DNA from: Tannerella serpentiformis
GTDB lineage: Bacteria; Bacteroidota; Bacteroidia; Bacteroidales; Tannerellaceae
Assembly (NCBI RefSeq): GCF_003033925.1
Contig: NZ_CP028365.1
Coordinates: 2,604,001-2,668,000 of the forward strand
Length of the DNA: 64,000 bases
Direction: 5' to 3'
Shown here: positions 258 through 61,770 of the stretch, one piece after another
Layout: each line of letters begins with the position of its first letter
Numbering within the stretch: position 1 is the first letter of the stretch
Made by a program: the position numbers and the translations under genes
The notes under the pieces: model-generated
Database searches by the model: none
Seen by the model: the letters and a program-made list of their open reading frames with translations, nothing else
Told to the model about the DNA's origin: nothing

Positions 258-585
258 CCGCTGACTCAAAAGTCGGCTGGCAAGTCGCTTGCCGAGGCCG
301 CTGGATCAAAAGTAATGCTGGCATGTCGCATGCCAGGGCCGCTGGCTCAAAAGTGACGCTGGCGTGTCGCATGCCGCGGCCGCTGGATTAAAAGTAACGC
401 TGGCGTGTCGCATGCCGCGGCCGCTGGATCAAAAGTGTTGCTAGCATGTCGCATGCCGCGGCCGCTGGATCAAAAGTAACGCTGGCGTGTCGCATGCCGC
501 GGCCGCTGGATCGAAAGTGACACTGGCATGTCGCATGCTGAGGCCGCTGGATCGAAAGTGCCGCTGGCATGTCGCATGCCGGGAA
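258..585. repeat. Tandem array, 8 units of 41 bp, palindromic core
   Basis: The motif CCGCTGGATCAAAAGT recurs at 258, 298, 339, 380, 421, 462, 503 and 544, so the period is 41 bp (40 once). Each unit carries the near-palindrome GGCATGTCGCATGCC, seven bases on either side of one central base. The first unit reads GGCAAG/CTTGCC where the others read GGCATG/CATGCC, a change on both arms that keeps pairing. The array fills most of the gap between the upstream terminator and eno. No coding potential is credible because a 41-bp period breaks frame. Confidence 0.9.
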
Positions 586-728
586 TACGGAAATAAGTGA
601 CACAGCGCAAGCACACGCTTTTATCTTCCTATCCACAGGAGGCTGCTCTCAACGCAGGCTCCGCCTTTGCAGGTTGGCATAAATTCCGACCTTTGGCCCC
701 GGTTGAAGAACCCATTAATCAAGTCAAT

Positions 729-2009
729 ATGAAAATAGAAAAGATTACCGCCCGCGAGGTATTGGACTCGCGTGGCAACCCCACCGTTGAGGTGGATGTG
801 AGATTAGAATCTGGATTTGTTGGACGTGCCAGTGTGCCTTCGGGCGCCTCGACTGGTGAGCATGAAGCCCTCGAATTGCGCGATGGAGACAAGAAGCGCT
901 ATGGTGGCAAAGGCGTGCTCAAGGCCGTGGAGAATGTCAACAATGTGATCGCTCCCGCCTTGATCGGTATGTCTGCACTCGAACAGCGTGCCATCGATCA
1001 TAAGATGCTCGCCCTCGACGGTACACCGACTAAGTCGAAGCTCGGTGCTAACGCCATCCTCGGCGTATCGCTGGCCGTAGCCAAGGCCGCCGCTAACTAT
1101 CTGGAGCTGCCCCTCTATCGCTACATCGGCGGCACGAACACTTATGTCATGCCGGTGCCGATGATGAACATCATCAACGGAGGCTCGCACAGTGATGCCC
1201 CGATCGCTTTCCAAGAGTTCATGATCCGTCCCGTGGGCGCTCCTTCTTTCCGCGAAGGTTTGCGGATGGGCGCGGAGGTTTTCCATGCGCTGAAGAAAGT
1301 GCTGCATGATCGCGGACTGAGCACCGCCGTCGGTGACGAGGGAGGCTTTGCCCCCGCACTGAATGGCACCGAGGACGCACTCGATTCGATTCTTGCCGCC
1401 ATTAAAGCTGCTGGCTACGAACCGGGTAAGGACATCCGTATCGGTATGGACTGCGCTTCGTCAGAGTTTTACAAGGACGGCGTCTATGATTATACCAAGT
1501 TCGAGGGCGCCAAGGGCAAGAAGCGTACGGCAGACGAGCAAATCGCTTATCTCGAGGAGCTGATCAGCAAATATCCTATCGACTCGATCGAGGACGGTAT
1601 GAGCGAGAACGATTGGGAGGGCTGGAAGAAGCTCACCGAGCGCATCGGCAACCGTTGCCAGCTGGTGGGCGACGATCTTTTCGTGACCAATGTGGAGTTC
1701 CTCTCCAAGGGTATCGCGCAAGGTTGCGCCAACTCGATCTTGATCAAGGTTAACCAGATCGGATCGCTGAGCGAAACGCTTGATGCGATCGAAATGGCCC
1801 ATCGCCACGGTTACACGACCGTTACAAGCCACCGCTCGGGCGAGACAGAGGACGCTACGATCGCTGACATCGCCGTGGCTACCAACAGTGGACAGATCAA
1901 AACCGGTTCGCTCAGCCGTAGCGACCGCATGGCCAAGTACAATCAGCTGCTTCGTATCGAAGAGGAGTTGGGCGCACTGGCTGTATATGGCTACAAGCGC
2001 GTGAAGTGA
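729..2009 (+). CDS. eno: Enolase
   Basis: Enolase converts 2-phosphoglycerate to phosphoenolpyruvate in glycolysis in the cytoplasm. The 426-residue product has the family's usual length and key motifs: SGAST loop near 38-42, GDEGGFAP at 202-209 with the catalytic glutamate E204, the magnesium-binding GDDLF near 314-318, catalytic K340 in ILIKVNQIG, and SHRSGETED at 367-375. The ATG at 729 is chosen because homologues begin MKIEKI; the same frame is open upstream to 597 but that extension has no family similarity. It stands alone between a 41-bp repeat array and a terminator. Confidence 0.98.
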
Positions 2010-2062
2010 GAATGGCTCCCGATCGGATTGTCGGTCGGAGCCGCTGTTATAGGTAATTCGAG

Positions 2063-2099
2063 AGAGGTGTCCCCATAGGATGGGGGCGCCTCTTTTTTT
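2063..2099 (+). terminator. Rho-independent terminator after eno
   Basis: AGAGGTGTCCCC pairs with GGGGGCGCCTCT (two wobbles) across a 7-nt loop, followed by a run of T. It resembles the terminator at 160-197 in sequence. Confidence 0.85.
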
Positions 2100-2129
2100 C
2101 GGGCGAAAGTGGGCGGTGATGCGTCGGAA

Positions 2130-59928: not shown

Positions 59929-59934
59929 AAGTTG

Positions 59935-59981
59935 GCCGGGTACATAATGGAGATCCTCCTCACATGTCCCGGCCAACTTGG
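59935..59981. terminator. CCGGGTAC-family hairpin between serpins C and D
   Basis: GGCCGGGTACAT faces ATGTCCCGGCC (one base missing in the right arm), with a 20-nt loop. Confidence 0.65.
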
Positions 59982-59988
59982 GGCTAAT

Positions 59989-61239
59989 TCAGATTTCCCC
60001 GATCTCTCCGATAAAGAGGATGGCGCCTGTGCTCCGCTCGCAGATGGCGAAGACGAAGGGGCGATCGACGCGGAAGAGGACGGGCTCTTTCTTGTCAACG
60101 GGCAGGGACATGAGCACCATCTCTACGCTTGTGACGGCTGCTGCCTCGGTGCCACTTTCCGTTACCTCGACGAACGTCTTATGGACGACGCCTGAGACGC
60201 GCAGCGGCTTCAAGGCGATGCCCGAGAAGTCTGCCTCAGGCGAGAAGGCGGCCTTCATGCCCATTCCGGGCAGGATGTCTTTGGCCAGGTCGTAGGTGCA
60301 TTCGGTGCGGAAGCGCGGCAGGTAGAGCTGCACCTCCTCGTTGTTCATCTGACGCATTTGCTTCCAACGCTCACCGCTGAGCGAGGCCATCACGTCGCGC
60401 GTCGTCTTTCCCTCTTGGGGCAGCATGACGACCATGCCAAAGGCCCCGTTGCCGTAACTCATCTCCAGGTAGCGGCAGACGTCGTTCGTGCCGTAGCGAT
60501 AGTCGCCTTGGCGGTACATCATCTGCACCTTCTCGGTCGATCCGTCGGCCTTGTGAAACTCGGCTGGCTTGGTGTTCTTCTTATCGAACGTCCTGGCCCA
60601 AGTGCCCTTGAAATAGACCGCATTGATGAGGTAGAGGAAGGCGTCGGAGGGGATGCGGTCGACGATCTGCGGAATGCGTTTGCGAGTCTGCCGGGCGCAC
60701 CAGTCGTTGATCACCTTCGGCGACCGGGGCGAGGCGAAGTCCAGCGGGCGCACCTCGGCGCCGTAATACGTGCGGTTAGCGTTCGTGAAGGCCGTGCGGA
60801 GCGTCTCGCCCTGGCGGTACCAGATGGAGTTGGCGATGCCGATGGTCGTCTGCGGGTCGGCCCGGAGCAAGGCCTCGCGCAGTCGCTTGCTGTAGGCATT
60901 GATGTCGGCCTGCGAATAGCCCGATTCGTGCAGTGCGGTGCGCATCTCATCGGCCGTAGTGCCGGCGGCGCCACCCAGTGTCATGTTCAGCGCCATGCCG
61001 ACGCTAAGGGGCGAGATGAAGACGTTCGCCTTGTCCGTGTGCTTCCTGACGGCCCGGAGCAGGTCGAAGGTGAAGGCGTTGTCGTCGGCCACCTTCTCCG
61101 GGTGCTCTAATCGGATAGGCTCGGCCGGCGTGGCGGCCGTCATCCCGTCTATACGTTGTTTCTCTCTCTTCGTGGCGCAGGCGCCAACGACAGCGGCCGA
61201 CAGCAGGGTCAGCCCGGCAATCATCATTTGTTTCTTCAT
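59989..61239 (-). CDS. Serpin lipoprotein D
   Basis: A 416-residue serpin, the most divergent of the four. The lipoprotein signal ends VVGAC and is followed by ATKREKQ, basic instead of acidic, and it lacks the proline-rich linker of A-C. Serpin marks include [29 protein letters not shown] and [16 protein letters not shown]. The hinge GTEAAAVTS leads to VEMVLMSLPVDKKEPV. By alignment to alpha-1-antitrypsin the P1-P1' pair is Met-Ser, the same as in that human elastase inhibitor. It is separated from the A-C block by a dispersed hairpin element, so it is probably its own unit. Start 61239 gives the lipoprotein signal. Confidence 0.92.
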   Translation of the reverse strand: MKKQMMIAGLTLLSAAVVGACATKREKQRIDGMTAATPAEPIRLEHPEKVADDNAFTFDLLRAVRKHTDKANVFISPLSVGMALNMTLGGAAGTTADEMRTALHESGYSQADINAYSKRLREALLRADPQTTIGIANSIWYRQGETLRTAFTNANRTYYGAEVRPLDFASPRSPKVINDWCARQTRKRIPQIVDRIPSDAFLYLINAVYFKGTWARTFDKKNTKPAEFHKADGSTEKVQMMYRQGDYRYGTNDVCRYLEMSYGNGAFGMVVMLPQEGKTTRDVMASLSGERWKQMRQMNNEEVQLYLPRFRTECTYDLAKDILPGMGMKAAFSPEADFSGIALKPLRVSGVVHKTFVEVTESGTEAAAVTSVEMVLMSLPVDKKEPVLFRVDRPFVFAICERSTGAILFIGEIGEI

Positions 61240-61435
61240 TTTATAATCGTGTTGGTGTAACATATCGTGCGTACGCTTTGAAGGACGTCCATCCGCCCCT
61301 ATATGCTGCATGGATGTGGTAAAATTAGCGGGGGAGGGCGACATGGAGCGGCACTTCCTTCCCGCGGCGGGATGTTGCGCATCGTGGACCGTCCTTTTTT
61401 TGCGACAAAAACATCGCTCGATAGAAAACACCTTT

Positions 61436-61770
61436 CCCGCGGCGGAAAGCGTTTTTCGGCAAAAAAGCCCCATTTCCCGTGGCGGGAAACCGATCTCCAG
61501 AAAATTTTACCGCCTTCCCGCCGCGGGAAACCGTTTTTCGAGCGATTTTTCCCCTTTCCCGCCGCGGGAAACCGTTTTTCTGAGAATTTTTTCCCTTTCC
61601 CGCCGCGGGAAGGCGTTTTTCGGAGATTTTTCCCCATTTCCCGCCGCGGGAAGGCGTTTTTCGAAAGTTTTGATCGGTTTCCCGCGGCGGGAAGGCGTTT
61701 TTGAAGGTCAGCGATCGGTTTCCCGTCTCATTTTCGCGTTTCAGAAATCACGGGATCGGTTTCGCGTCTC
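61436..61770. repeat. Tandem array, 41-bp units with CCCGC palindrome
   Basis: TTTCCCGCCGCGGGAAA (8-bp arms round one base) or a variant has its CCCG at 61436, 61476, 61517, 61558, 61599, 61640, 61681 and 61722, with a decayed copy near 61763. A single CCCGCGGCGGG also lies at 61361. The array sits between the divergent serpin D and dut genes. Confidence 0.9.

Follow-up and report, generated by a model that had tools for sequence, protein, structure and literature searches.

Ordinary minisatellites of the variable number tandem repeat (VNTR) type are made of tandem copies and show whole-unit differences between copies. In bacterial interspersed mosaic elements (BIMEs), palindromes alternate in clusters with short linkers. 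BIMEs and repetitive extragenic palindromic (REP) sequences are intergenic palindromes, according to passages of PMC3733652. Passages of PMC4596501 describe two miniature inverted-repeat transposable elements (MITEs) of Porphyromonas gingivalis, MITEPgRS (MITE464) with 41-nt tandem direct repeats and BrickBuilt with 23-nt tandem repeats, and mention that 41-, 23- and 22-nt repeats had previously been noted in P. gingivalis W83. Here we describe intergenic tandem arrays of Tannerella serpentiformis, found in a window of 64,000 nucleotides (positions 2604001-2668000 of a chromosome of one contig and 3,013,500 bases) and in a sample of the rest of the chromosome.

These arrays resemble MITEPgRS, as presented in passages of PMC4596501, in having 41-nt tandem repeats in a MITE in the same bacterial order. 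MITEPgRS is a single sequence family, whereas the present arrays fall into 59 unrelated groups with a common step. BrickBuilt, in the same passages, is likewise an intergenic MITE; it contains a minisatellite and predicted stem loops, and its length differs by whole units between strains, but its unit is 23 nt and its ends are of the IS5 type, whereas the ends of the MITE found here are different and its duplication is 10 bp long. REPs and BIMEs have a common sequence tag and a transposase; here the sequences are free, and arrays of Tannerella forsythia occur without a Y1 transposase match. Unlike ordinary VNTR minisatellites, the arrays have one period across unrelated sequences and covarying dyads. 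The initial annotation of the window had stated that no such family was described. This is too strong, since MITEs with 41- and 23-nt repeats appear in passages of PMC4596501 and one array family here is a MITE. In passages of the open literature, with most subscription papers not covered, we found no description of one period common to unrelated sequences or of two dyads per unit, and the passages of PMC7014623, PMC13298647, PMC10947601 and, for P. gingivalis, PMC5771137 do not describe such arrays. One end of a P. gingivalis MITE, used in a single-pattern search, had no match in 393 genomes of the order.

The arrays of T. serpentiformis are intergenic minisatellites of dyad-symmetric sites, one per about 20.5-21 bp. 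Usually two different sites alternate at this spacing, and thus a 41-42-bp repeat results. The step is fixed while the site sequences differ between families. We are highly confident that the periodic arrays are real as a pattern.

A fixed period of 41/42 bp, with 21 bp once and 168 bp once, had been claimed for intergenic arrays in twelve stretches of the window. By autocorrelation against 300 shuffles each, all twelve were periodic, eleven strongly and one (27715-28190) weakly. The genome sample consisted of 40 stretches of 20 kb outside the window (800 kb, 27% of the chromosome, about one per 75 kb). Arrays were listed with Tandem Repeats Finder (TRF) at score cut-offs of 50, 80 or 100 depending on the count, lower rows being dropped before counting. 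The genome-wide peak at 41-42 bp was present in this sample: 97 of 232 non-redundant arrays with a score of at least 50 had a period of 41 bp (43 arrays) or 42 bp (54). Periods of 40, 43 and 44 bp were found in 6, 4 and 2 arrays, and the other classes, many of them multiples of this step, were 21 bp (9 arrays), 82-84 bp (21), 123-126 bp (15), 168 bp (2), 252 bp (2) and 378 bp (1). Periods of 31, 32 and 33 bp occurred once each, and 52 and 53 bp never. Among the stronger arrays of window and sample together (864 kb, TRF score at least 100, period at least 36; n = 186), a step of 40-43 bp fitted 166; at periods up to 160, where the step test is sharper, it fitted 156 of 175. Scaled from 166 in 864 kb, the whole genome would hold about 580 such arrays. 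The initial annotation had read the periods as four and two helical turns. Periods of 42 and 21 bp fit this, but three and five turns (31-32 and 52-53 bp) hardly occur, and therefore the rule is set per dyad, at a step of about 21 bp, and not by helical phase alone.

Autocorrelation of intergenic DNA peaked, in order, at lags 42, 84, 126, 41, 168, 82, 210, 252, 123 and 164. When all TRF rows were removed, the top lags were still 42, 84, 126 and 168, followed by 12 and 9 from unannotated coding sequence. Predicted coding sequence outside TRF rows matched itself at 0.306 and 0.304 at lags 42 and 84, against about 0.300 at most multiples of three; lag 12 was equally high (0.306). The slight excess at 42 and 84 might have resulted from false gene calls over decayed arrays. 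Coding repeats were tried as a source of the arrays and rejected: a strict filter, with no open frame through the array, kept 94 of 190 sample arrays, with 41 and 42 bp still the top periods at 20 arrays each.

Genes were called with a home-made codon model, which missed some open reading frames (ORFs) and made at least one doubtful call inside the array at 35410 (35831-36091). By these calls, 5.8% of all DNA and 22% of intergenic DNA belongs to arrays on the 40-43-bp lattice. Of the 181 intergenic gaps at least 300 bp long, 106 contain such an array, and 3.8% of array bases fall within called genes. As the initial annotation had observed, gaps of all orientations are occupied; among gaps of 50 bp or longer, those with an array numbered 66 of the 221 between tandem genes, 21 of the 57 between convergent genes and 22 of the 52 between divergent ones. 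Mechanically predicted ORFs within such arrays are not genes, which calls for caution.

The sequences at different loci had been described as unrelated, and this is true between families; within the genome, however, arrays recur as families. Single linkage grouped the 186 arrays into 99 families. The 65 family representatives with periods of 40-43 bp formed 59 unrelated sequence groups, with periods of 40 (2 groups), 41 (22), 42 (31) and 43 bp (4), and 10 of the 65 were closer to another representative than 99% of shuffled sequences were. Further matches within the genome numbered 12 for the array at 35410, 16 for that at 52473 and 34 for that at 32502, some of them being both strands of one place.

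For the anatomy of the unit, the best dyad was placed in the 66 families having a 40-44-bp member. At least 6 of 8 arm pairs were complementary in 46 of them, which 32% of shuffles also reach, and 7 or 8 pairs in 26, compared with 3.8% of shuffles. In the 46 families, complementarity at distances 1-8 from the axis was.76,.93,.89,.96,.89,.87,.76 and.59 (.25 expected). It was.35,.22,.28 and.30 at distances 9-12 and rose again to.54,.41,.41,.41,.54,.48,.41 and.43 at distances 13-20. This second rise implies a second dyad half a unit away. Over distances 11-19 complementarity was 0.423 compared with 0.253 in shuffles, and the second dyad had at least 5 of 9 pairs in 17 of the 46 families compared with 4.6% of shuffles, with variation among single families. 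The unit therefore reads as a strong site of about 16 bp, a non-symmetric linker of 4-5 bp, a weaker site and another linker, with the dyads 20.5-21 bp apart; linker symmetry was at chance level.

A central base, which the initial annotation had pointed out, is usual: the strict set had 21 odd-centred and 6 even-centred palindromes. When pairs 3-7 alone defined the axis, complementarity was present at pairs 1 and 2 in 0.62 and 0.86 of the odd-centred families, the former being more than a hairpin loop requires, and in 0 and 0.33 of the even-centred ones, whose sites look like hairpins with 4-nt loops. Dyads occurred at 13.0 per kb in arrays, 3.3 in column-permuted arrays and 3.9 in other intergenic DNA. 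In the count of dyad spacings, the 40-43-bp class follows from the period itself in short-period arrays (5.2 of 15 arrays in the column-permuted control); the informative parts are the dyad density itself, the class at 20-21 bp (5.4 of 50) and the arrays of long period (12.8 of 33, without a control of their own).

The arms of the palindromes covary. We compared consensus units over 74 locus pairs in 16 families, with columns slid by 1-4 as the control. Pairs that were complementary in one unit and altered in the other had changed on both arms to a different complementary pair at rates of 0.227 (A sites) and 0.318 (B sites) between loci, compared with 0.043 and 0.081 in the slid controls, that is, 4-5 times more often. 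Within arrays (70 arrays, 522 units), the rates were 0.145 (A) and 0.079 (B) compared with 0.061 and 0.041. The TTGC-N9-GCAA site is the clearest example. In 36 distinct sites in arrays, inner pairs 3 and 4 were complementary in 0.97, with pair types GC 24, CG 9 and AT 2 for pair 3 and GC 19 and AT 16 for pair 4; the fractions for pairs 2 and 1 were 0.56 and 0.67. In the 10 sites outside arrays, pairs 3, 4, 2 and 1 were complementary in 0.6, 0.5, 0.5 and 0.2. The claim of covariation rests on the comparison between loci and on the TTGC-N9-GCAA sites, and not on a comparison of 17-mers, which had been chosen partly by palindrome score.

The arrays are also rigid in length. Only 29 phase changes were found at 567 unit junctions, and 71 of 82 arrays with at least 4 copies had none. 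Units deviate from their consensus at 6.8% of bases. Indels per substitution were 0.088 within 160 arrays and 0.058 between loci, compared with 0.137 in dispersed intergenic repeats and 0.195 in 55 other tandem arrays; the alignment method for these controls differed from that used for the arrays. The two dyads in each unit at 20.5-21 bp, the few phase changes and the covarying arms bear out the initial annotation's fixed length with free sequence and make its geometric rule more exact; its alternative, an amplification mechanism with a set step, may also be right.

One family of arrays is shown to be carried by MITE-like elements, and the data suggest the same of another. The MITE at 52435..52828 is one of three copies in the genome and has 28-bp inverted ends (CAGGGCAACCGCATCAAATCAAAACCAC), which are perfect in all three copies; a 24-bp end pattern had 3 forward and 3 reverse matches in the genome. 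It is flanked by the target duplication GGAAGAAACA at 52425..52434 and 52829..52838, and the 10-bp duplications at the three copies match at 10, 9 and 9 of 10 positions. Within this MITE lies a 42-bp array of 8.1 copies with the dyad GATCTCCGTA-CCCC-TACGGAGATC (52473..52811). The three copies are 352, 394 and 478 bp long and thus differ by 42, 84 and 126 bp. The copy in the window is inserted into another 41-42-bp array, whose left and right parts (52269..52434 and 52829..52931) were grouped together by sequence, and the 352-bp copy seems, by eye, to be inserted in an array of another family. In a search of this genome for a parent transposon with these ends, the matches (at most 2 mismatches) were confined to the three short elements, six ends in all.

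For a second type of end, GCTTTTGGAAATGCTTGC, 10 of 11 matches (at most 3 mismatches, 864 kb) were within 60 bp of a 41- or 82-bp array and pointed inwards, and the inner sites of these elements differ between loci. Inverted flanks at a score of at least 14 were found at 33 of 157 arrays compared with 2.7 expected, an excess part of which can come from the arrays' own symmetry. A duplication of at least 8 bp was found only at the three copies of the 52435-52828 element, among the 26 arrays listed. The flank test and the test of array ends below left out arrays without full flanks. Ends like those of ISPg1, ISPg4 and ISPg3, taken from a table in the passages of PMC4596501, were also searched for. 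The end ACGTGAGTTCGA (at most 1 mismatch) had 13 matches, 7 of them no more than 150 bp from an array, a distance that takes in 35% of intergenic DNA; none of 3 matches to GAGACC-type ends was near an array, and the 3 matches to GAGACTGTTGCA were all units within one array.

The relatives of T. serpentiformis seem to share part of this pattern. Its Lon is 83% identical to that of T. forsythia, and its G+C content is 0.57 (sample) compared with 0.44-0.50 in T. forsythia stretches. In 229 kb of one T. forsythia genome (G014), 8 of 13 arrays had periods of 22, 23, 23, 24, 41, 41, 42 or 63 bp. A set of 133 loci from relatives (2.20 Mb in total) had 74 arrays, of which 42 were without an open frame through them, 13 of these with periods of 20-23 bp and 7 of 41-44 bp; this count omits seven named loci as duplicates and the 32 arrays with an open frame, and keeps tRNA-like tandem rows. 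Two of three array sequences were unmatched in 20 other Tannerella genomes. The third, at 32502, matched one of them (G012, 72%), where TRF again gave 41 bp. This G012 array (L266) is flanked by inverted octamer arrays, AAAGATTC and GAATCTTT, at 105-185 and 735-813. A preference for about 21-23 and 41-44 bp seems wider than this genome, and the dense, sharp pattern at 41-42 bp is so far confined to it among the Bacteroidales examined.

We tentatively prefer, at somewhat under even odds, a constraint on DNA structure, in which the shape of a palindrome is recognised on a two-turn lattice. A factor would recognise the palindrome by shape, either as an extruded hairpin or cruciform or as a symmetric duplex bound by a dimer, and would keep the sites symmetric and in register at two helical turns. 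Recombination or slippage would alter the number of whole units, and transposition would spread the arrays. In favour of this reading are the period peak, the second dyad, arm covariation, the rigidity and dyad density of the arrays, their mobility and whole-unit steps, and relatives whose arrays differ in sequence yet have periods of 21-23 and 41-44 bp more often than others. Several observations weigh against this explanation. The covarying pairs are not independent events. A clear dyad is present in only 46 of 66 families, at the level reached by 32% of shuffles, and single units have only a modestly low hairpin energy (median z -1.14, with 25% of them below -2). The agreement of array ends with the dyads is weak: of 126 ends, 39 lie 6-12 bp outside the strong axis compared with 18 expected, in bins chosen post hoc, the Rayleigh test gave p 0.019, and the two ends of one array are uncorrelated (p 0.19). 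The broader preference in Bacteroidales is weak, periods of 22, 23 or 41 bp being found in 5 of 19 non-coding arrays from 40 further genomes (611 kb, one stretch per genome, some of them short contigs of 387 to 2,392 bases). A protein recognising a duplex palindrome without sequence is unusual, and no candidate factor was found: this genome has fewer HU-family matches (5 and 3) than T. forsythia has (11 and 9), which leaves HU-family gene number unsupported as the cause. An almost comparable share of our belief goes to a purely mutational origin, in which hairpins aid slippage or recombination in whole units and the replication or repair machinery sets the step, without function or binding factor. 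The copies of the MITE do differ by whole units, the arrays occupy gaps of every orientation as neutral DNA would, and their sequences are mostly not common across the genus. Templated repair of imperfect palindromes (quasipalindromes) copies a change from arm to arm and would likewise yield arm covariation. However, indels per substitution are below both controls, and we know of no mutational step that yields 41-42 bp for any sequence. One version, snap-back copying of a 21-nt seed, would give symmetric linkers and was rejected, as linker symmetry is at chance. The present data do not separate shape recognition from a mutational set step.

The remaining explanations are much weaker. A role of the arrays as terminators, attenuators or stabilisers made of RNA hairpins is improbable. 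In some sites, such as AAAACGCGCCGCGTTTT, a G+C stem is flanked by A and T, but the counts of tandem, convergent and divergent gaps show no terminator-like bias, and RNA offers no reason for a fixed step. G-T mismatches are about as frequent as A-C mismatches in A sites (257 and 239) and somewhat more so in B sites (462 and 360), a weak test, as the strands were not oriented by transcription. Still less likely, and very doubtful, are REP/BIME arrays spread by a REP-associated tyrosine transposase (RAYT, Y1). Alternating palindromes and short linkers resemble BIMEs, the genome has one Y1_Tnp gene (1380004-1380351), and the 168-bp part of a window array contains a palindrome headed by GTAG, GTAGGGGCGTATTGCATACGCCC. 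In contrast, no sequence is common to the sites in their 59 unrelated groups, the T. forsythia genome G014 has 22-24- and 41-42-bp arrays and no Y1_Tnp match, and the flanks of the RAYT gene carry other palindromic repeats and, by eye, no array units. Chance, tool bias or assembly error is the least credible of all: shuffles fail to reproduce the periodicity, the genome is one contig with units 6.8% off consensus, and separately assembled relatives show similar periods.

The window itself carries the following arrays, to which the initial annotation had mostly given periods of 41 or 42 bp; the stretch at 32500 is instead 40/41 bp, and the 168-bp period given for one stretch is four steps of 42. 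Best lags of 41 were found by autocorrelation in 258-585, 41010-41107 and 61436-61770, and of 42 in 7672-7735, 35411-36056, 45191-45885 and 52288-53005. The array at 258..581 has 7.9 copies of 41 bp with the dyad GGCATGtcgCATGCC. At 7670..7735 there is a pair of copies 42 bp apart (lag-42 identity 1.0), and at 41010..41107 a short 41-bp array with the palindrome AAACAGGCGCCTGTTT (lag 41, z 7.9); neither these two stretches nor 27715-28190 gave a TRF row at score 50. A row of arrays with periods of 42 (5.1 copies), 168 (3.0) and 42 bp (5.9) occupies 7999..8937; in 8000-8935 the best lag was 168, then 42. Its A site AAACGCGCCGCGTTT is constant while the B site differs between the two 42-bp parts, CCAYCTAAGATGG in the array at 7999 corresponding to GCTACTAAGTAGG in that at 8691, both palindromic. 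A dispersed palindrome headed by GTAG, GTAGGGGCGTATTGCATACGCCCC, occurs at 8190-8697, in sample stretches L073, L076, L052 and L063 and in others, inside long-period arrays and beside other arrays; RAYT-type REPs have the same kind of head. An HU-HIG match at 1379250-1379612 lies just before the RAYT-like Y1_Tnp gene.

At 15321..15730 is a step-42 array with TRF periods of 42, 84 and 168 bp (best lag in 15269-15735 84, then 168 and 42), and at 19608..19773 a 21-bp array of 7.9 copies with a single dyad, GCTCGTggACGAGC, per 21 bp (best lag in 19608-19790 21, then 63, 84 and 42). The weak array at 27715..28190 (lag 124 z 5.0, lag 42 z 4.8, p 0.003) is possibly decayed. The 40/41-bp array at 32502-32717, with A site TTGCGGAACTTCCGCAA, lies in 32487..32729 with inverted ends and an end motif at 32714 on the minus strand; in 32500-32720 the best lag was 40, with 41 high too. 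Two 42-bp arrays are longer, one at 35410..36057 (15.5 copies, A site CTTGCACGGCGTGCRAG, B site near AAAACCCGGCGAGTTTT) and one at 45199..45875 (16.1 copies). In 61432..61800, a 41-bp array (61432-61702, A site TTTCCCGCCGCGGGAAA) is followed by a second 41-bp repeat (61713-61800), and a serpin gene (59989-61473, minus strand; Pfam E 2.4e-107) adjoins the array at 61432. Other features of the window are two cobalamin riboswitches (2993-3201, plus strand; 14933-15158, minus strand), which adjoin TonB-dependent receptor genes, and a bacterial RNase P class A gene (53957-54322, plus strand). Heptamer arrays (TAGAGGG, CTACCCT and relatives) are at 50168-50216 and 50273-50513 and, in the sample, at L039 18790-18980, L059 669-763 and L070 5923-6137, with inverted pairs in three sample places.

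Sequence is what usually defines a repeat family; here, dozens of unrelated sequences have their length and the positions of symmetry in common, and the arms covary as in RNA stems, yet in intergenic DNA on a two-turn step. It is a less likely proposal than shape recognition itself that the arrays form a class of chromosomal element defined by geometry only, a palindrome lattice with sites free in sequence and particular to a family or locus, kept by a shape-reading factor. If true, about a fifth of the intergenic DNA would be a distributed structural layer of the chromosome. If a factor reads the lattice, this structure-reading layer would be invisible to sequence searches; if there is no factor, the arrays would document in nature what replication and repair do to palindromic repeats. 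In both cases, a single organism supplies very many natural variants for testing.

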